Below, in pieces: positions 16,488-25,179 of a DNA stretch of 35,798 nt (position 1 is the stretch's first letter; each line of letters starts with the position of its first letter). The DNA lies in the NCBI GenBank assembly GCA_023251695.1, contig JAHEYE010000025.1, positions 1-35,798 on the forward strand. The letters run 5' to 3'. The translations under genes and the position numbers were made by a program. Below the pieces are notes generated by a model that was given only the letters and a program-made list of their open reading frames with translations, searched no databases and was not told where the DNA came from. Origin of the DNA: Sphingobacteriaceae bacterium. GTDB taxonomy: Bacteria; Bacteroidota; Bacteroidia; B-17B0; Aurantibacillaceae.

Positions 16488-18401
16488 TTACTTCTTCTTA
16501 CCTGAATTTAATTGCTGACGATCTTTTGTCATTTGTTCCAGTTTCTTCTGGAAGTTAGAAACCTTCGCCGGTTTCTTCATGTTCTCATCAATTTTCGCGC
16601 GGATTTTTTTATCATCAATCACCCATTTAAAAGCGTAGGTCTGTAAAAAGGTAATCATGTTCGCTAAAAAGTAATACCAGCTTAAACCTGCAGCGTAACT
16701 GTTCATTACTGCTAAGAAGATTACCGGCATAAAGTACATCATGAATTTCATACCCGGCATTTGCGTACTTTGCTGCGGCTGCAACATGGCGCTATTCATC
16801 CATGTGTAAATAATGGTTGACACGAACATTAAAGCGGCGAATAAACTCACGTGATCACCGTAAATACTGTCTACGATGGAAACTTTTCCGAAGGTCCAAA
16901 TGCTATCGTAGGTTGATAAATCATCTGCCCACAAAAAACCTTTTTGGCGTAATTCAATTGCTGCCGGAATAAATGCAAATAAGGCAATTAATATCGGAAA
17001 CTGTAATAATAAAGGAATACAGCCCGACAAAGGATTAACGCCTGCCTTACGGTATAAGGCCATTGTTTCCTGTTGTTTTTTCATTGGGTCGCCGTCTTTG
17101 TATTTTGCAGTTATAGCTTCTGTCTCCGGTTTTAATACACGCATACGTGCGCCCGACATATAAGTTTTGTATGCAATTGGTAATAAAACAATTTTTACAA
17201 TCATGGTGAGTATCAAAATAACAACACCCATATTCATATTGCCTAACCAATCGAATAACGGAATCACCATCCACTTATTTATGTAAGAGAAAATACTCCA
17301 CCCGGTTGGAATAATCTGTTCTAATTCATCGCCATAACCTGAAAGTGTTTTATAATCGTTCGGACCGAAATAAAATTTCATGCCGAATTTTTCGCTTGGC
17401 ATGTGGCTATACGGAATACCTAAATCTGAACTCAGTGCTTTTACAGTAGTTGCTGAAGTAGGCCGGCCTGACATTTTCACGAAACTGCCATCTTTCAAAA
17501 ATTCAGTTTGTGCTATTAAAGTGGAATTGAAGAATTGTTGTTTGAATGATACCCATTTAATTGGGGCGTCATTCAAAGGTTTTTCTTCTTCAGCTGTTCG
17601 CGGATTAATGTAATCGGGTTTATCAATCGTGAATTTATAATATGCGGTTGCTGCTTCTTTTTCCTTTTCAATGTATTTCTCCTGTGAAGGAAGGTTCATT
17701 CTCCAGTTCAGTGTCATCTGATCAACGTTTGAAGAAATGATTTTTTCCATGCCCACAAAACGGATATCGCATCCTAACATGTAATCTTTATCTTTCAAAC
17801 TATACACATATTCGATATAAGAACCGGGCTTGCTTGTTTCTAATTTAAACGTAATGGATTTATTTCCGGAAGAAACAATTGAGGATTTATCAGAGGTCTT
17901 AAAATAAAAGCTATCGGTAGATAAAATGCGTGAACGCTCGTACGCATCTAGTTTAAGAGAAAAATTTGTGGAATCTTTATCAAATAAAATTAAAGGTGTG
18001 GTTTGTCCGGAACGGGTGTATTTTTTTAATTCAACCTTTATTATCTGTGCGCCTTTGCTACTAATGTAGGCTTTCAGAACATCATTTTCTATGGTGATGA
18101 TTTCTTCTGTGCCTTTTGCTGAAACTGAAAAATCGCGGTAAGCATCATTTTGCAAAGCAGCTTTTGCAGAATCACTTAAAACAACTGCGGTTTTTATGGT
18201 ATCTCCGGCCGTTGTAGCTGTATTAGTATTAGCTACAATTTTTTTAGCTTCTTCTTCAGCTAATTTTTTTTGTACCGCAACAATTGAATCCTGTTTTTGT
18301 TTAGCACGCGCCTGTTGTTCTTTGCTTGGTCCGCTGAAAAATAACCAAATACCAAGTATTGCTGCTATTATTCCTAAACCTATTAATGAGTTCTTGTCCA
18401 C
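16488..18401 (-). CDS. yidC: Membrane protein insertase YidC
   Basis: YidC inserts and folds inner-membrane proteins, alone or with SecYEG. The 637-residue protein has an N-terminal membrane helix (LIGLGIIAAILGIWLFF), then a charged Ala/Lys-rich stretch, then the large periplasmic beta-super-sandwich domain (about 90-360), then the conserved five-helix insertase core (NKWMVIPLFDWLGNMNMGV, PLSGCIPLLLQFPILIALF, PGMKFMMYFMPVIFL). The basic cytoplasmic tail ends in KK. The start is a GTG at 18401 preceded by a TAAATTTG box about 20 bases upstream. It converges on the amidase. Gene identity is firm. Confidence 0.96.
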   Translation of the reverse strand: MDKNSLIGLGIIAAILGIWLFFSGPSKEQQARAKQKQDSIVAVQKKLAEEEAKKIVANTNTATTAGDTIKTAVVLSDSAKAALQNDAYRDFSVSAKGTEEIITIENDVLKAYISSKGAQIIKVELKKYTRSGQTTPLILFDKDSTNFSLKLDAYERSRILSTDSFYFKTSDKSSIVSSGNKSITFKLETSKPGSYIEYVYSLKDKDYMLGCDIRFVGMEKIISSNVDQMTLNWRMNLPSQEKYIEKEKEAATAYYKFTIDKPDYINPRTAEEEKPLNDAPIKWVSFKQQFFNSTLIAQTEFLKDGSFVKMSGRPTSATTVKALSSDLGIPYSHMPSEKFGMKFYFGPNDYKTLSGYGDELEQIIPTGWSIFSYINKWMVIPLFDWLGNMNMGVVILILTMIVKIVLLPIAYKTYMSGARMRVLKPETEAITAKYKDGDPMKKQQETMALYRKAGVNPLSGCIPLLLQFPILIALFAFIPAAIELRQKGFLWADDLSTYDSIWTFGKVSIVDSIYGDHVSLFAALMFVSTIIYTWMNSAMLQPQQSTQMPGMKFMMYFMPVIFLAVMNSYAAGLSWYYFLANMITFLQTYAFKWVIDDKKIRAKIDENMKKPAKVSNFQKKLEQMTKDRQQLNSGKKK

Positions 18402-18420
18402 TTCTTAGAAATTTGAAGGG

Positions 18421-18428
18421 CAAATTTA
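18421..18428 (-). promoter_or_regulatory. -7 element of yidC
   Basis: TAAATTTG (minus strand) matches TAnnTTTG. The nearest TTG upstream on that strand is only 12 bases away, too close for a standard -33. A start near 18414 would leave a 13-base leader to the GTG at 18401. Confidence 0.4.
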
Positions 18429-18500
18429 GCATTTTTAGGTCAATAAAAAGGCCTTTGTAAGTTATTGTTTGTTAAGTAGTTCTATAGTTCGCGCAAAAGC

Positions 18501-19007
18501 TTAATCCACAAGTGGCTTTACTTTTTTAGAGTACTTTCTTTTAAGGTCTAAATAGCCGATTTGCTCATCAGTGGCAGGGTTATCTATCTGACTAACCTTC
18601 GCATCCCCGCTCAGGTTCTTTACAGATATATTTTCCTCCATTGCAGCTATAAATTCATACTTATAATAGCCTTTTGTATTAGGATATTTTGAAACCCCTG
18701 TATTTACGCTTACAGATTTAGTAGCATAGCCTTTTTTATGGATTTTAATGATATAATCACGGTTCTGAGGCAAGCTAAAATTAAACGACATCTCATCATC
18801 TACGAATTTGGTATCGACTATTGTATTCAAATAGACAAGCTCCACCTTATATAAGCCACTTCCTTTGGATTTTTTGGAAATTTTACCTGTCACTTCCATA
18901 ACGGGATCACTTCCGTTTTCATTTGCGGGAGGGTTACCTGCATTTAATGCAAGGCTTATAATTGCAAAAAGCAATGTTGCGATGTTAATTTTTACGTTGT
19001 TTTTCAT
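18501..19007 (-). CDS. Small exported protein of unknown function
   Basis: The 168-residue product has a signal peptide (INIATLLFAIISLALNAG). Its mature domain reads like a single Ig-like beta-sandwich of the carboxypeptidase regulatory type: EVTGKISKKSKGSGLYKVELVYLN, FNFSLPQNRDYIIKIHKKGYATKSVSVNT. That fold is common in Bacteroidota cell-surface proteins, but I do not recognise a named family. A Lys/Asp-rich tail (LKRKYSKKVKPLVD) ends it. It lies 187 bases after the response-regulator gene on the same strand and has its own promoter, whose downstream half (TTTGTAGTGTA) is repeated at the thioredoxin-like gene on the far side of the kinase. That suggests regulation by the neighbouring two-component system. 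Confidence 0.72.
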   Translation of the reverse strand: MKNNVKINIATLLFAIISLALNAGNPPANENGSDPVMEVTGKISKKSKGSGLYKVELVYLNTIVDTKFVDDEMSFNFSLPQNRDYIIKIHKKGYATKSVSVNTGVSKYPNTKGYYKYEFIAAMEENISVKNLSGDAKVSQIDNPATDEQIGYLDLKRKYSKKVKPLVD

Positions 19008-19023
19008 GGCTTATGTTTTTAAT

Positions 19024-19061
19024 TACACTACAAACTACGCCCATTTAAAAGCGCAAATCAA
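19024..19061 (-). promoter_or_regulatory. Promoter of the small exported protein, with shared TTTGTAGTGTA element
   Basis: Reading the minus strand, TTG (19061-19059) is followed after 21 bases by TAGTTTG at 19037-19031 (the -7 box is one base short of consensus). TTTGTAGTGTA runs on at 19034-19024. The same 11 bases follow the -7 of the thioredoxin-like gene at 23199-23209. The ATG is at 19007. Confidence 0.5.
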
Positions 19062-19194
19062 CCTTAAAACAGGCTTTGAGTTACCTGTGTAAGATTTTAG
19101 GTCATTTTGTAAGTGTTTAGATTTTAGAAAAGCCGCAAAAAGTGAAATACCCAAAATCTATTGGAATTGGATCCATACCCTTATCCGATTGAAT

Positions 19195-19839
19195 TTAAAT
19201 CAGGCGGTCTTTTAAGGCCTTGGAAACAGCCTCGGTCATAGAATGAACATGAAGCTTTTCATAGATGTTTTTTATATGAAAACGTACCGTATCAATACTG
19301 ATACAACATTTTTCTGCTATCATTTTATAACTGAATCCATTGGTTAGAGAAGTAAGAATTTCTTTTTCGCGGACGCTTAATTCAACCTCATTGTTCACGG
19401 GTATGTGCTGTTGACGAAAGAGATGAAGAACTTTGCTGGCAATTGAGGGGGTCATGGGTGCTCCCCCACAGGCCGCTTGCTTAATTGCATCAATTAAATC
19501 TGAAGGAGCGCTTTTTTTAAGCATATATCCAACCGCTCCCGCACAAATAGAACGGAAAACTTTATCATCATCATCAAAAACAGTTTGCATTATTACCTTT
19601 ACATCAGGAAAATTATCCTTAACAATTTTCACTGCCTCAATTCCTGATAAACCAGGCATTCCAATATCCATTAAAATTACATCAGGGATTAGTTTTCCGG
19701 TTTCTTCTTTTATATTCAAAGCATTTGGATATGCCTTGCATAGTTCAAACTCAGGTAAGGTCTCAACCAATTTCGAAAGGCTTTCCCTTAAAGCTTTATT
19801 GTCTTCATAAATCGATACTCTGATCACATTTTTTTTCAT
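19195..19839 (-). CDS. NarL/LuxR-type response regulator
   Basis: This 214-residue protein is a receiver plus DNA-binding regulator. The receiver holds the acidic pair ED at 12-13, the phosphorylated aspartate D58 in VILMDIGMPG, and the conserved lysine in YMLKKSAP near 108. The output domain is a LuxR-type helix-turn-helix (LSVREKEILTSLTNGFSYKMIAE, then ISIDTVRFHIKNIYEKLHV) at about 154-210. Its ATG is five bases after the stop of the histidine-kinase gene, so the two are translationally close and form a cognate pair. Targets are unknown, but TGTAGT-type sites around the kinase suggest the adjacent small genes. Confidence 0.94.
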   Translation of the reverse strand: MKKNVIRVSIYEDNKALRESLSKLVETLPEFELCKAYPNALNIKEETGKLIPDVILMDIGMPGLSGIEAVKIVKDNFPDVKVIMQTVFDDDDKVFRSICAGAVGYMLKKSAPSDLIDAIKQAACGGAPMTPSIASKVLHLFRQQHIPVNNEVELSVREKEILTSLTNGFSYKMIAEKCCISIDTVRFHIKNIYEKLHVHSMTEAVSKALKDRLI

Positions 19840-19844
19840 GAGAT

Positions 19845-22800
19845 TTATATTTGAAAATCGAGAATCAATTGAGTTCCCTTAAAACGCTCAGTAAATATTT
19901 GCAGTGTGCCATTTAGTTCTTCTGCTCTGTGTTTCATGTTAATTATACCATTTCCGCCTAGGGTATTACTTTCTTCTTTAAAGCCAACGCCATCGTCATG
20001 AATCCTGATATTTATATGTTTATCAACTTTTATTGCTTTTATTGAACAGTTAACCGCTTCAGAATATTTAGCAACATTGTTTATTGCTTCTTTTAAAATA
20101 AGGTAAATATTCTTTCTTTGGGTCATAGATAATTTCAATTCGTTTATGCTTTCCGGAATATCGAATTCAAGTTTAATGTTTTTAGCTTCCAATGTTTGAG
20201 TGGCGATAATTTGTAGTCTTTCTATAATGTTTAAGAATTTTTCGTTATCCGAATTAACGGCCCAAACTATATCGCTCATACTATCAACAGATGACCTTGC
20301 GCTTTCGCCGAGCCCGTCCATAATAGGAATGGCCTCCGGGGCTTTTTCCTCAATCATTCGTTTTGCAACTTCGCTGTAAATCGAAATACTACTTAGCGTT
20401 GAACCAATCTGATCATGCAAATCCCTTGAAATTTTATTCCGAACCTCATGCATTGCTAAAATGTTTCTTAAACGAATGTAATATATAAGATAGGAACATG
20501 CCAATAAAAACACTAGGCATGAAATATAAAACCAGGATGTTCTCCAGAACGGAGCAGCGATAATAATTTGAACAGAAGTACCCACGTCATTCCATACACC
20601 ATCATTATTACTTGCTTTTACCGTAAATGTATAAGTACCCGGGTTTAAATTTGTATAAGAAGCTATCCTGTTTTGGGCATTTTTATAAATCCATTCTTTT
20701 TCAAATCCTTCTAATTTATAGGCGTATTTGTTTTTACCTGCATTAATAAAACTTATTGCAGTAAATTCAAATGAAAAGGAGTTTTGATTATGGGTAAGGT
20801 GAAGGGCTTTTGTAGTTGAAATACATGAGTTTAAAATTCCTGAAGAATCTCCGGGGACAATTTTTTTATTGGATAAAAGAAAATCAGAAATAATTACAGG
20901 CGGTTTAAACGGATTGTTTCTCAAGCTATCGGGATTAAATGATAATATTCCCTTTTTACAGGTAAATAAAAATCTGCCATTCACACTTTTGCATGCGCAT
21001 CCTTCTTGAAACTCAGTTGTAGGTAAACCATCAATACGATCGAAAATACGGCATTGAATTAATTTATTTTCTTCAAATGTTAACCTGCAAATACCATAGT
21101 TGCAGCCCACCCAAAAATTTCCCGTTTCATCTTCCATTATAGTGTTCCATGTATTCCCCGGCAAACCGTCCCGAATAGTATAACAAATAGGTGCCTTGTT
21201 TCCGCCCTTAATCTTAATAATTCCTTCGCCTGCGGTGGTTATCCAGATATTTTCTTTTTTATCTTCGATAATTTGGTAAATGTGATTTTTAAATACATCG
21301 CTTTTAAAATCTTCAGAGAGCTCCATTAACTTACCGCTAGTCTGGTTAAGCTTACTTAAACCCTCATTGGTTCCTGTCCATATTTCACCGTTTTTCCGTT
21401 GCATTATGCATGTTATCCCTGCTTCTGTGTTTTCACCTTTATAAATGGTAAATTTTTTATATGTTAGGTCGTAACTTATCAAATTATTTTTATCGGTTCC
21501 AATCCAAATAATTTTATTTTTCTTTTTATCGGCAATAAAACTGGTGATTTTATTTTGTGGTAGTATCTTATTGATCGAAACAATCTTTTCATAAATTACA
21601 GTCTCATTAGAATTATTTTCAGGTAATTCTAATTTAAAAAGATCATTATTATTTGAAAATAAAATCGTTTCACCATCTCCGGGCGCAAGACATTGAATTT
21701 GTTCTCCGGGTTTAACATTAATTATTTTCTTTAAAACACCATTTTTTAAATTAAAAGTATAAATACCTTGATGTCTCGAGGCAATAACCAAAACTGTACT
21801 TCTACTAACTGTAACACCGATAATATTCTCAAAAACTTTTTCATCAGAGATTAGCGGTAAACTCATTAAATTAAATTTAAGGGTTTTGGGGTTGAAAGCA
21901 TTTAATCCGCCATCTTTTGTAGCTGCCCAAAACATGCCACTTCTTCCTTGTGAGACCGTATTTATTTTATTACTATTTAATGAATTTGAAACATCTCTAT
22001 CTTGTGAATAAGTAAAAAACTTATCGAGCTTTGGATAATACACGCAGAGACCGTTTTCCGCTGTTCCCGTCCATATTTTACCAAATTTATCCTCGTACAC
22101 GCTTGTAAGATTATCAGAAATTAAAGAATATTTATCTTTTTCTTTATGATGAAAAACTCTTAAACTATCAGTTTCCGGATCAAGCTTGTTCAACCCGCAC
22201 GAAGTAGCCATCCAAACATTTAACGCTTTATCTATAAACAAATCATTGACACTGTTTGAGCTAAGTCTATTAACATACGTTTTAAATGTTTTAAGATCTT
22301 TTGAAACCAAATTTAATCCCCCATTCAATGTTCCTATCCAAATCCTTCCCTTTTTGTCGCCTTTAATGCAGGTAATTGCGTTACTACCAATTGAATTAGG
22401 TTTATCGCTATGCTTAAATCCCGAAAACTCCTTTTTATTCTGATCATAAATATTTAGACCATTGGTGGTACCTATCCAAACAAGTTTATTAATGCTATCA
22501 ACAAATAGACAGGTAATATTATTGCAACTTAAACCTGAATTATTTTTATTATGCTGAAACAAATCGAATTTATGAGTATAAGGATTGTATCTATTGAGAC
22601 CTTTATTTTGAGTTCCTATCCAAATTATTCCACTTTTTTCAACTGCAAGACATGTTACATTATCACTAACTAATGAATTAACGTTTTTTGAATCATGCTT
22701 AAATGGAATAAAGCTGTATCCGTCAAACTTATTTAATCCTTCCTCCGTTCCATACCACATAAAACCCAAACTATCCTGAATTATTGAGGTAACGTTATGA

Positions 22801-22910
22801 TGCGACAAACCATTATCGGTGGTATAATGCCTGAAAAATAAGGTGTCGTTTTGAGAAAGGGAACACTTACTTATTATAAAAAATAACATTAAATGATAAG
22901 CACATTTCAT
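19845..22910 (-). CDS. Periplasmic beta-propeller histidine kinase (Reg_prop/Y_Y_Y/HisKA_3)
   Basis: About 1021 residues. After a signal peptide (LMLFFIISKCSLSQ), at least eleven propeller repeats of the W(I/Y)GT..GLN type follow (MWYGTEEGLNKF, IWIGTQNKGLNRY, VWMATSCGLNKL, IWTGTNEGLSKL, FWVGCNYGICRL), consistent with two seven-bladed propellers. A Y_Y_Y domain (NKYAYKLEGFEKEW, NLNPGTYTFTVKASNNDG) leads to one membrane helix (YISCLVFLLACSYLIYYI). The cytoplasmic kinase has the HisKA_3 box SRDLHDQIGSTLSS and ATPase motifs EAINNVAKYS, DDGVGF and GGNGIINMKHRAEELNG. This is the SusR/HTCS-like sensor architecture but without a fused receiver and AraC output; the partner is the separate LuxR-type regulator. 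The ATG at 22910 is preferred over the TTG at 22946. The ligand is unknown. Confidence 0.93.
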   Translation of the reverse strand: MKCAYHLMLFFIISKCSLSQNDTLFFRHYTTDNGLSHHNVTSIIQDSLGFMWYGTEEGLNKFDGYSFIPFKHDSKNVNSLVSDNVTCLAVEKSGIIWIGTQNKGLNRYNPYTHKFDLFQHNKNNSGLSCNNITCLFVDSINKLVWIGTTNGLNIYDQNKKEFSGFKHSDKPNSIGSNAITCIKGDKKGRIWIGTLNGGLNLVSKDLKTFKTYVNRLSSNSVNDLFIDKALNVWMATSCGLNKLDPETDSLRVFHHKEKDKYSLISDNLTSVYEDKFGKIWTGTAENGLCVYYPKLDKFFTYSQDRDVSNSLNSNKINTVSQGRSGMFWAATKDGGLNAFNPKTLKFNLMSLPLISDEKVFENIIGVTVSRSTVLVIASRHQGIYTFNLKNGVLKKIINVKPGEQIQCLAPGDGETILFSNNNDLFKLELPENNSNETVIYEKIVSINKILPQNKITSFIADKKKNKIIWIGTDKNNLISYDLTYKKFTIYKGENTEAGITCIMQRKNGEIWTGTNEGLSKLNQTSGKLMELSEDFKSDVFKNHIYQIIEDKKENIWITTAGEGIIKIKGGNKAPICYTIRDGLPGNTWNTIMEDETGNFWVGCNYGICRLTFEENKLIQCRIFDRIDGLPTTEFQEGCACKSVNGRFLFTCKKGILSFNPDSLRNNPFKPPVIISDFLLSNKKIVPGDSSGILNSCISTTKALHLTHNQNSFSFEFTAISFINAGKNKYAYKLEGFEKEWIYKNAQNRIASYTNLNPGTYTFTVKASNNDGVWNDVGTSVQIIIAAPFWRTSWFYISCLVFLLACSYLIYYIRLRNILAMHEVRNKISRDLHDQIGSTLSSISIYSEVAKRMIEEKAPEAIPIMDGLGESARSSVDSMSDIVWAVNSDNEKFLNIIERLQIIATQTLEAKNIKLEFDIPESINELKLSMTQRKNIYLILKEAINNVAKYSEAVNCSIKAIKVDKHINIRIHDDGVGFKEESNTLGGNGIINMKHRAEELNGTLQIFTERFKGTQLILDFQI

Positions 22911-23154
22911 TATTTTGCAGATTAGAATTTTGGGTTTATAAAGCAATATAACAAAGTTTCAGGAACAATCCTTAATAAAAGACTAATACCTGCATAATTA
23001 TGTAGTTTAGCCGATAGTGCTGTTTTTAGCAAGAAACCGGGGTTTATAGTGTATTGTATAGTAAATCCGACACTGCCCCAAAATCACTTAAAGCAATTAC
23101 AAAAGATAAAAACATGTTAATCTTCCATCTCCACAACTATATCCCAAAAAGTTT

Positions 23155-23172
23155 ACTACATCATTGTGTAGT
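23155..23172. promoter_or_regulatory. Dyad ACTACA-N6-TGTAGT overlapping the -33 box (candidate operator)
   Basis: Perfect 6+6 inverted repeat with a six-base spacer. Its right arm overlaps the TTG at 23172-23174. The spacing and placement suit binding by a dimeric regulator such as the LuxR-type response regulator encoded nearby; that link is inference. Confidence 0.45.
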
Positions 23173-23209
23173 TGACGGGCCTTTATTAATGCTGTAGGTT
23201 TGTAGTGTA
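23172..23209 (+). promoter_or_regulatory. Promoter of the thioredoxin-like gene
   Basis: TTG at 23172-23174, a 20-base spacer, then TAGGTTTG at 23195-23202: an exact Bacteroidota promoter. It runs into TAGTGTA, so that TTTGTAGTGTA at 23199-23209 is shared with the promoter at 19024-19034. The start site near 23209 excludes the track start at 23205 and supports the ATG at 23274, leaving a leader of about 65 bases. Confidence 0.7.
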
Positions 23210-23273
23210 CAAAAAAACAATAAAAAATGAAACTCGGAATTCAAATCATATTTATAAACTAAATATTAAAACC

Positions 23274-23801
23274 ATGAAAACTTTAACCTCAACTTTAGGA
23301 ATCGCTTTATCATTCTTTTTATTTTCTTTTAAATCAGTAAAGAATGATTTTATTAAATTACCAAATGTTAATCTGACCACACTTGAAGGAAAGGCCGTTA
23401 ACATTGGAGATCTAAAATCTGCTAAACCAACCATTATTTGTTTTTGGTCAATTACAGATGATGCCTCCATTCAAAGAATTAATGCAATTCAGGAAAATTA
23501 TGGAGCCAATAAAAATGAAGTTAGGATAATTGCAATCTCAACCGATAACAATACTTTTATAGTAAAACCTAAAGTTTTATTTTCGGGCTGGGAGTTTGAG
23601 GTTTACATGGATTCGAATCAGGATTTTAAAAGGGCAATGGGTGTTGGAAATTTTCAAAATACTATTGTAATTGATGCCAATGGAAATACAGTTTACAACA
23701 ATACCAATGTCAAATCAGAAAACGAAACAGCACTTTTTGCAGTAGTAGATAACTCAATTGCATCAGCACATAATACGTCGCTATTAGCAAAGGCCGAATA
23801 A
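23274..23801 (+). CDS. Exported thioredoxin-fold protein lacking the redox cysteines
   Basis: The 175-residue product has a signal peptide (TLTSTLGIALSFFLFSF) and an AhpC/TSA or TlpA-like fold: LPNVNLTTLEGKAVNIGDLKSAK, then TIICFWS, IIAISTDN, ATG-like VYMDSNQ and NTIVIDANGNTVY. Where active relatives have WCxxC the sequence reads WSITDDAS, and the cis-proline loop, normally GTPTTFVID, reads FQNTIVID. Both catalytic cysteines and the cis-proline are therefore gone, and the mature protein contains almost no cysteine. It cannot act as a thiol oxidoreductase by the usual chemistry; a binding or signalling role is more likely. It is divergent from the propeller kinase, and its promoter shares an element with the other small gene flanking the two-component pair. 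Confidence 0.8.
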   Translation: MKTLTSTLGIALSFFLFSFKSVKNDFIKLPNVNLTTLEGKAVNIGDLKSAKPTIICFWSITDDASIQRINAIQENYGANKNEVRIIAISTDNNTFIVKPKVLFSGWEFEVYMDSNQDFKRAMGVGNFQNTIVIDANGNTVYNNTNVKSENETALFAVVDNSIASAHNTSLLAKAE

Positions 23802-23804
23802 GCA

Positions 23805-23826
23805 TGGTTTGTTTAACATCAAACCA
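23805..23826. terminator. Weak hairpin between convergent genes
   Basis: TGGTTTG and CAAACCA form a perfect seven-base stem around an eight-base loop, just after the thioredoxin-like stop and before the symporter stop on the other strand. There is no T tract on either side, so termination is only possible, not shown. Confidence 0.35.
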
Positions 23827-23844
23827 ATATATAGCAAAAATATA

Positions 23845-25179
23845 CTAAAACTTCTCTCCCTCGAGCCTTGCCACAACAGCAGATGCGACAGCATTACCAA
23901 CAACATTAGTTGCACTGCGGCCCATGTCGAGAATTTGATCCACTGCTAAGAGTAATAATAATCCTTCTCCGGGAATATTAAACATACCCAGCATGCCGGC
24001 AATAACAACTAAAGAAGCGCGCGGTACACCGGCCATGCCTTTACTGGTAACTAATAAAATTAACATCATTTTTATCTGATCGGCCATGCCTATATCCATA
24101 CCATACGACTGCGCAATAAATACTGTTGCGAAAGTCATGTACATAATAGAGCCATCCAGATTAAAAGAGTAACCCAAAGGCAAAACAAAACTTACTATGC
24201 GGTTACTGATGCCGTGTTTTTCTAAAGCTTCAATGGTCTTCGGCATTGCGCTTTCTGAACTTGCAGTACTGAAAGCCAATAGAATTGGTTCTTTTATATC
24301 TGCTAACAATCTGTAGAATTTTATTTTGAAAACAAGTGCGATAATCCACAACACAACGAAAACAAAAAATAACAGGCCTCCAAAGAAACACAAGATCAAA
24401 TAAGCATAGCCGCTTAAAACATCGAGTCCTTGCATAATGACAACAGCCGTAATCGCTCCAAAAATTCCTACAGGCGCAAAGTTCATCACGTAATTAGTAA
24501 TCTTAAACATAATATGCGCCAGACTATCACAAGCTTTTACCATGGTCTCGCCTTGTTTGCCTAATGAAGCTGCTGCAACGCCAAAGAATAATGCAAACAC
24601 TACAATTGGTAAAACATCATTACTCGCCATAGCACTTACAATACTATCCGGTATAACATGCGAGATAAAATTCTTCGCATCCTGCACGTTCGATTTTACG
24701 CCGGTTTCCGCCCTTGCGTCAGGTAAATCCAAATGCATGACTTTTCCTGGCTCAAATACATTTACAATCACTAATCCCAGCATTAAAGCAATTAATGTTG
24801 CAGAAGTAAAATAAATTAATGTTTTTAAACCAATTCGTCCAACCGATTTGAAATCCCCTACTTTTGCAACACCCAAAACCAGAACCGCAAAAACTAAAGG
24901 TGCAATTATCATTTTTATCATCCGTAAAAAAATGTCACTCAAAATTGAAAACCGTGAGGCAATTTTTTTCTTTTCTTCTTTAAATTGCTTTTCGCTGAAT
25001 TTAGTCAGGGCCGCTTCAGTTTTTTTGATGACTTCAGGATTGCCGCTTTTCACGAGAATGATTTTGGCATAATCGGTTTTTTGGGTGGTAATGGATTTAT
25101 TAATAACGTATCCTGCTATCAGACCAATTAACATGGCAATAACAATACTGGTTATAAGGCGGTTTTTCTTCGAAAACAT
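23845..25179 (-). CDS. Dicarboxylate/amino acid:cation symporter (SDF/DAACS family)
   Basis: This 444-residue inner-membrane protein imports glutamate, aspartate or C4-dicarboxylates with protons or sodium. It has eight predicted helices and the family signatures: hairpin 1 with SSESAMPKT, helix 7 LGYSFNLDGSIMYMT (NMDGT-like, here NLDGS), hairpin 2 with SKGMAGVPRASLVV, and helix 8 DMGRSATNVVGNAVA. An N-terminal insertion of about 50 residues (KTDYAKIILVKSG to KKKIASRF), rich in Lys and Glu, separates helices 1 and 2. The aspartate of DMGRSATN that binds the substrate amino group in GltPh relatives is present. The ATG at 25179 lies behind a TAAGTTTG box. Transported substrate cannot be fixed from sequence. 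Confidence 0.92.
   Translation of the reverse strand: MFSKKNRLITSIVIAMLIGLIAGYVINKSITTQKTDYAKIILVKSGNPEVIKKTEAALTKFSEKQFKEEKKKIASRFSILSDIFLRMIKMIIAPLVFAVLVLGVAKVGDFKSVGRIGLKTLIYFTSATLIALMLGLVIVNVFEPGKVMHLDLPDARAETGVKSNVQDAKNFISHVIPDSIVSAMASNDVLPIVVFALFFGVAAASLGKQGETMVKACDSLAHIMFKITNYVMNFAPVGIFGAITAVVIMQGLDVLSGYAYLILCFFGGLLFFVFVVLWIIALVFKIKFYRLLADIKEPILLAFSTASSESAMPKTIEALEKHGISNRIVSFVLPLGYSFNLDGSIMYMTFATVFIAQSYGMDIGMADQIKMMLILLVTSKGMAGVPRASLVVIAGMLGMFNIPGEGLLLLLAVDQILDMGRSATNVVGNAVASAVVARLEGEKF

Follow-up and report, generated by a model that had tools for sequence, protein, structure and literature searches.

Propeller-type sensor histidine kinases give dozens of matches per genome in the bacterial class sampled here, and most of them are without known targets. 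One such kinase is encoded together with a NarL/LuxR-type response regulator in a draft Bacteroidota genome that is 84% complete, where the two genes lie between two genes for small exported proteins. The locus raises the question of which neighbours the pair controls, and through which DNA site. It was studied within a contiguous stretch of 35,798 nucleotides, referred to as the window. The original prediction was of one local regulon in which an 11-base element shared by two promoters places both small exported genes under the regulator.

Genes of the Locus

The genes and predicted sites are listed in Table 1. Gene calls and Pfam domains agree with the 1021-residue propeller kinase and LuxR-type regulator that had been predicted. 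In the kinase, the dimerisation/phosphoacceptor and ATPase domains of a two-component kinase are both recognised (HisKA_3, 39.8 bits with a cut-off of 24; HATPase_c, 26.5 bits with a cut-off of 26.4), and RDLHDQIGS is present in the sequence. The regulator consists of a receiver and a GerE DNA-binding domain, and its gene lies beside that of the kinase with a gap of 5 bp (19839/19845). The flanking genes are likewise of the kinds described: one encodes an exported β-sandwich-like protein whose N-terminus is signal-like and whose core has six strands, and the other, divergent, a thioredoxin-like protein of the AhpC-TSA/Redoxin type.

Table 1. Genes, predicted promoters, and candidate regulatory sites of the locus.
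Feature	Position	Strand	Remarks
Exported β-sandwich protein, 168 aa	18501..19007	−	Family without known function; sited after regulator gene
11-mer TTTGTAGTGTA, copy 1	19024..19034	−	Match outside the -7 TTTG almost certainly coincidental
Promoter element of the β-sandwich gene, AATCTTACACAGGTAA-N43-TAGTTTG	19031..19096	−	0 mismatches before homologues in G006 and G007
NarL/LuxR-type response regulator, 214 aa	19195..19839	−	Response_reg + GerE (Pfam)
Propeller sensor histidine kinase, 1021 aa	19845..22910	−	ATG at 22910; Reg_prop, Y_Y_Y, HisKA_3, HATPase_c (Pfam)
Second, imperfect palindrome copy CTGCATAATTATGTAG	22990..23005		1 mismatch; kinase side of shared intergenic region
Predicted regulator operator CTACATCATTGTGTAG, CTACA-N6-TGTAG	23156..23171	+	0 mismatches; palindrome and spacing recur at G246, G220, and G176 loci
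Promoter of redoxin-like gene	23172..23202	+	TTG 23172-23174, N20, TAGGTTTG 23195-23202
11-mer TTTGTAGTGTA, copy 2	23199..23209	+	Almost certainly coincidental
Redoxin-like exported protein, 175 aa	23274..23801	+	AhpC-TSA/Redoxin; divergent from kinase/regulator; predicted target

A Predicted Operator Ahead of the Redoxin-Like Gene

Among 395 genomes sampled across the class, the closest kinases are those of G246 and G220, from another family, with about 51% identity along the full length and 55-60% in long segments; within the genus of the window's genome, the best matches reach about 25-27% full-length identity. The regulator is 63% identical to the G246 and G220 regulators and 69% identical to that of G176. 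These four regulators form one clade in the tree (support 99), and the recognition helix DTVRFHIKNIYEKLHVHS is identical in all four.

Comparison of the closest kinase/regulator pairs from other families yielded a motif in which the palindrome CTACA-N6-TGTAG precedes a promoter of the Bacteroidota -33/-7 consensus (TTG/TAnnTTTG; PMC7366714). The full element predicted at 23156-23202, CTACATCATTGTGTAG TTG ACGGGCCTTTATTAATGCTG TAGGTTTG, has zero mismatches to CTACA-N6-TGTAG and TTG-N20-TAnnTTTG. Two sites of the palindrome with TTG-N20-TAnnTTTG lie in intergenic regions of the G246 locus, ahead of neighbouring exported genes; the G220 locus has two sites with palindrome and spacing, one without the TTG, and the G176 locus a site with one mismatch. 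When 40 genomes were scanned with up to three mismatches, all sites with none or one fell beside this regulator clade. The palindrome accompanies the clade in three of the class's families. A three-mismatch site on contig C30 of G252, where there is no kinase/regulator pair, was treated as chance. The window site is the single site within three mismatches in its own genome (looser second sites could be missed at this threshold and in an assembly 84% complete), and 0.01 sites are expected in the shuffled window. Control of the divergent redoxin-like gene by the regulator, by way of this predicted operator just 5' of the promoter, is very probable.

On the kinase side, no matching -7 box was found 23 bp from the imperfect palindrome copy, nor was a standard promoter with a CTACA-N6-TGTAG operator found for the kinase operon of the window. 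Clusters of GTAGT in the intergenic regions are partly accounted for by the palindrome and were set aside as evidence.

At the other loci the predicted targets are exported proteins, some T9SS-sorted, and, in G246, G220, and G176, propeller-only proteins. Because the target gene differs between genomes, the link finds no support in gene content by itself. A local regulon can nevertheless be real without conserved gene content, since the operator, and not the target gene, travels with the regulator. Small exported Reg_prop proteins without a kinase occur at three loci (L284, 11666-12439; L285, 12033-12785; L286, 12214-12840), each behind an operator and adjoining a related pair; such proteins might modulate the sensor.

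Operator Geometry across Other Pairs

Palindromes of the form 5-N6-5 with any arm sequence stand 23 bp before 12 of 1865 TAnnTTTG boxes; all the geometries tried average 3.6 (sd 2.0). In addition to the loci already described, these palindromes include TACGC-N6-GCGTA ahead of the regulator genes of G006 and G002, and a copy of it with one mismatch precedes the T9SS-sorted gene of G006. More distant pairs carry variant palindromes, for example CTACATCATTATGTAA or TGACATAATTATGTGA, located 22-24 bp before the -7 box and 5' of the regulator gene or of neighbouring exported genes. The arm sequences vary between regulator clades and the spacing stays.

At 23 pair loci, perfect palindromes with 6-bp arms peak at a spacing of 23 (5, against a mean of 0.39 per spacing; largest count outside spacings 22-24, 2) and at 47 other loci none has this spacing, a test that is not blind because the loci were chosen partly by earlier matches. 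The contrast is weaker when one mismatch is allowed, with 14 of 364 boxes at pair loci and 9 of 609 at other loci. Contig C4 of G396, chosen solely on two three-mismatch matches to the motif, turned out to contain a propeller kinase and regulator, with one site ahead of the regulator gene and the other ahead of the gene for a 2314-aa exported protein. The palindrome was not found in the locus scan of four pair loci (L287, L290, L336, and L340).

These patterns suggest, as a tentative reading that we hold at slightly less than even confidence, that propeller-kinase/NarL-type pairs of Bacteroidota obey one operator code, in which the palindrome arms are specific to the clade and the distance to the -7 box is almost constant at 22-24 bp, and that each pair has few targets, as a rule the gene of the regulator itself and those of exported proteins alongside it. 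A recognisable operator of nearly fixed geometry would tie sensor to output, and if the code is true, the regulons of very many orphan sensors become readable from sequence.

The geometry also bears on how the regulator would act and whose site the palindrome is. Repression of the redoxin-like gene in place of activation would fit an operator that abuts the -33 TTG; we regard it as unlikely, as simple repressors usually tolerate other positions and the nearly fixed 22-24 bp offset across clades suggests contact with the polymerase, as with class II activators. Less probable still is that the palindrome is real and serves another regulator, the neighbouring pair being incidental. That the window's regulator binds the palindrome is something we infer, which leaves room for such a reading; it accords poorly with a palindrome that tracks this clade into three families and with arms that change by clade at constant spacing.

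The Exported β-Sandwich Gene and the 11-Base Repeat

In the structure model of the β-sandwich protein, the six-strand core occupies residues 36-102 and weakly resembles CnaB, transthyretin-like, and SusC NTE domains; the model as a whole is poor (mean pLDDT 53). The palindrome CTACA-N6-TGTAG was not found in the promoter of this gene. A different element is present, in which AATCTTACANNGGTAA sits exactly 43 bp 5' of TANTTTG in the window, G006, and G007. The G007 homologue is encoded at an unlinked place with no adjoining kinase/regulator pair of this type. The gene is placed outside the regulon because its promoter lacks the palindrome and shares another element with homologues, one of them away from any such pair; most likely a different regulator governs it. 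The -7 box is short (TANTTTG), which may indicate a different sigma factor.

Exact AATCTTACANNGGTAA-N43-TANTTTG sites in the genus number five (19031-19096 on the minus strand of the window; G006:C13:102697 and 234398; G007:C5:123322; G004:C34:18777), of which three precede β-sandwich homologues and two are further sites in G006 and G004. Members of the β-sandwich family often adjoin a gene for a response regulator, in many cases one with a single domain (L086, L261, L262, L265, L278, and others); a response-regulator gene lies within 1.2 kb of 10 of 47 family members, compared with 27 of 320 other small genes.

The 11-mer TTTGTAGTGTA had been proposed as the element joining the two small genes. 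It is present as described, with zero mismatches, in exactly two copies in the window, 4.2 kb apart and each right after a -7 box (preceding bases TAGTTTG and TAGGTTTG), an arrangement that favours its being the regulator's site with both genes as the regulon. This is nonetheless highly improbable. The 11-mer is not enriched, occurring four times in its own genome (reversed control, five) and 27 times in eight genomes of the genus (reversed control, 48). The third copy in the genome (G000:C190:10677-10708, L283) is also directly 3' of a TAnnTTTG box and serves an unrelated exported protein, with no Pfam match in a 429-residue part; the fourth is inside an open reading frame (C103). Nor does the 11-mer occur in the homologous promoters examined or at the G246, G220, and G176 pair loci. 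The part beyond the -7 box, TAGTGTA, is not conserved, since the bases after TTTGT differ among the promoters of the window, G006, and G007 (TGTTATA in G006 and TATCAAA in G007 follow TTTG). From base frequencies at 98 TAnnTTTG sites of the window's own genome, taken from the first matches listed with repeats removed, two promoters share seven bases 3' of the -7 box with a chance of about 2e-4; for an estimated 20 promoters per window (about 190 pairs), this gives about 0.04 for some pair, a value that does not yet allow for the choice of feature sought. On enrichment, footprint, and context the 11-mer was ruled out as an operator, and the repeat is almost certainly a coincidence.

The Symporter-yidC Interval and the Origin of the Pair

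The whole set lies between a dicarboxylate symporter gene (23845-25179) and yidC (16488-18401), which neighbour each other throughout the eight-genome set of the genus. In four relatives outside this set (L147-L150) the two genes adjoin, about 85 bp apart. Almost every genome of the genus has different genes in the interval. The G006 slot contains a homologue of the small exported β-sandwich protein together with a T9SS-sorted protein, a TPR-type kinase, and a different regulator, and the G002 slot a regulator and a TPR-type kinase. Other slots hold, as we take them to be by eye from sequence, a WG-repeat protein with a DinB-like protein, a TRIC-like membrane protein, toxin-antitoxin-like genes, and one protein of no recognised kind. 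The interval (18402-23844 of the window, with the matching loci L081 and L138-L143) is a gene-exchange hotspot in the genus, with two kinds of kinase/regulator pair among its contents.

Comparison with related genomes thus revealed that the flanking genes are not kept beside the pair, and conserved four-gene synteny was ruled out; the slot that the set occupies is variable, and the genes on either side of it are conserved. A common origin of this pair with the G006 and G002 pairs of the same slot, by a swap of sensors, was ruled out by the regulator tree, in which the regulators fall in distant clades, which implies separate insertions. The patchy spread of the pair's relatives suggests horizontal transfer, by which the pair was probably acquired into this slot; differential loss is an alternative account of the same pattern. 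As improbable as the 11-mer regulon is the absence of any regulon, with unrelated genes assembled by chance in an insertion hotspot, a reading that the changing content of the interval favours and that covers the β-sandwich gene, and not the exact operator and promoter before the redoxin-like gene.

Proposed Mechanism

The locus is likely, in our assessment, to hold a two-component system with local output, in which the regulator activates the redoxin-like gene through the palindrome and the β-sandwich gene is under separate control. The predicted local regulon with exported output is in this way retained for the redoxin-like gene and given up for the β-sandwich gene and the 11-mer. An exported β-propeller sensor kinase, presumably periplasmic, would phosphorylate the co-transcribed NarL-type regulator, as the families of the two proteins suggest. 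The regulator would bind the 16-bp palindrome that directly adjoins the divergent gene's -33 box; judging from the geometry, it would activate the housekeeping promoter there in class II fashion.

The output would be one small exported protein with a redoxin fold (AhpC-TSA, E 1e-8; Redoxin, E 2e-8; Pfam), about 35% identical to the conserved exported redoxin of the genus. It reads WSITDD where relatives have the CxxC active site as WCKPC or WCxPC, and both catalytic cysteines and the NVPHT motif are lost, which makes thiol chemistry unlikely. Our guess is that the protein binds rather than reduces.

Comparison with Known Systems

Of the systems described so far, the nearest are the hybrid two-component systems (HTCS) of Bacteroides polysaccharide loci, whose regulators are of the AraC type and use direct repeats (PMC3878776). 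As in HTCS, a COG3292-type periplasmic sensor with a kinase is predicted here to control neighbouring exported-protein genes, and the DNA motif is specific to the regulator clade (PMC3878776). The propeller-type sensor is represented by Reg_prop and Y_Y_Y domains, with a presumed periplasmic location. Unlike HTCS, the kinase and regulator are separate proteins and the output domain is of the NarL/LuxR type (GerE), not AraC; also unlike HTCS loci, the interval of the window contains no recognised SusC/SusD or glycoside hydrolase gene. A literature search, with most subscription journals outside its reach, returned HTCS work only and no operator for separate propeller-kinase/NarL pairs.

The output protein shares the AhpC-TSA/Redoxin fold of TlpA/ResA-type exported redoxins and differs from them in lacking both CxxC cysteines and the NVPHT stretch. 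NarL/LuxR-type regulators paired with HisKA_3 kinases are known from NarXL, UhpBA, and LiaSR, in which a dimer site lies near the promoter. The pair described here belongs to the same kinase and regulator families, with a predicted dimer site similarly close to the promoter, and is distinguished from them by its β-propeller/Y_Y_Y sensor and by a CTACA-N6-TGTAG palindrome that abuts the -33 box of a Bacteroidota promoter.
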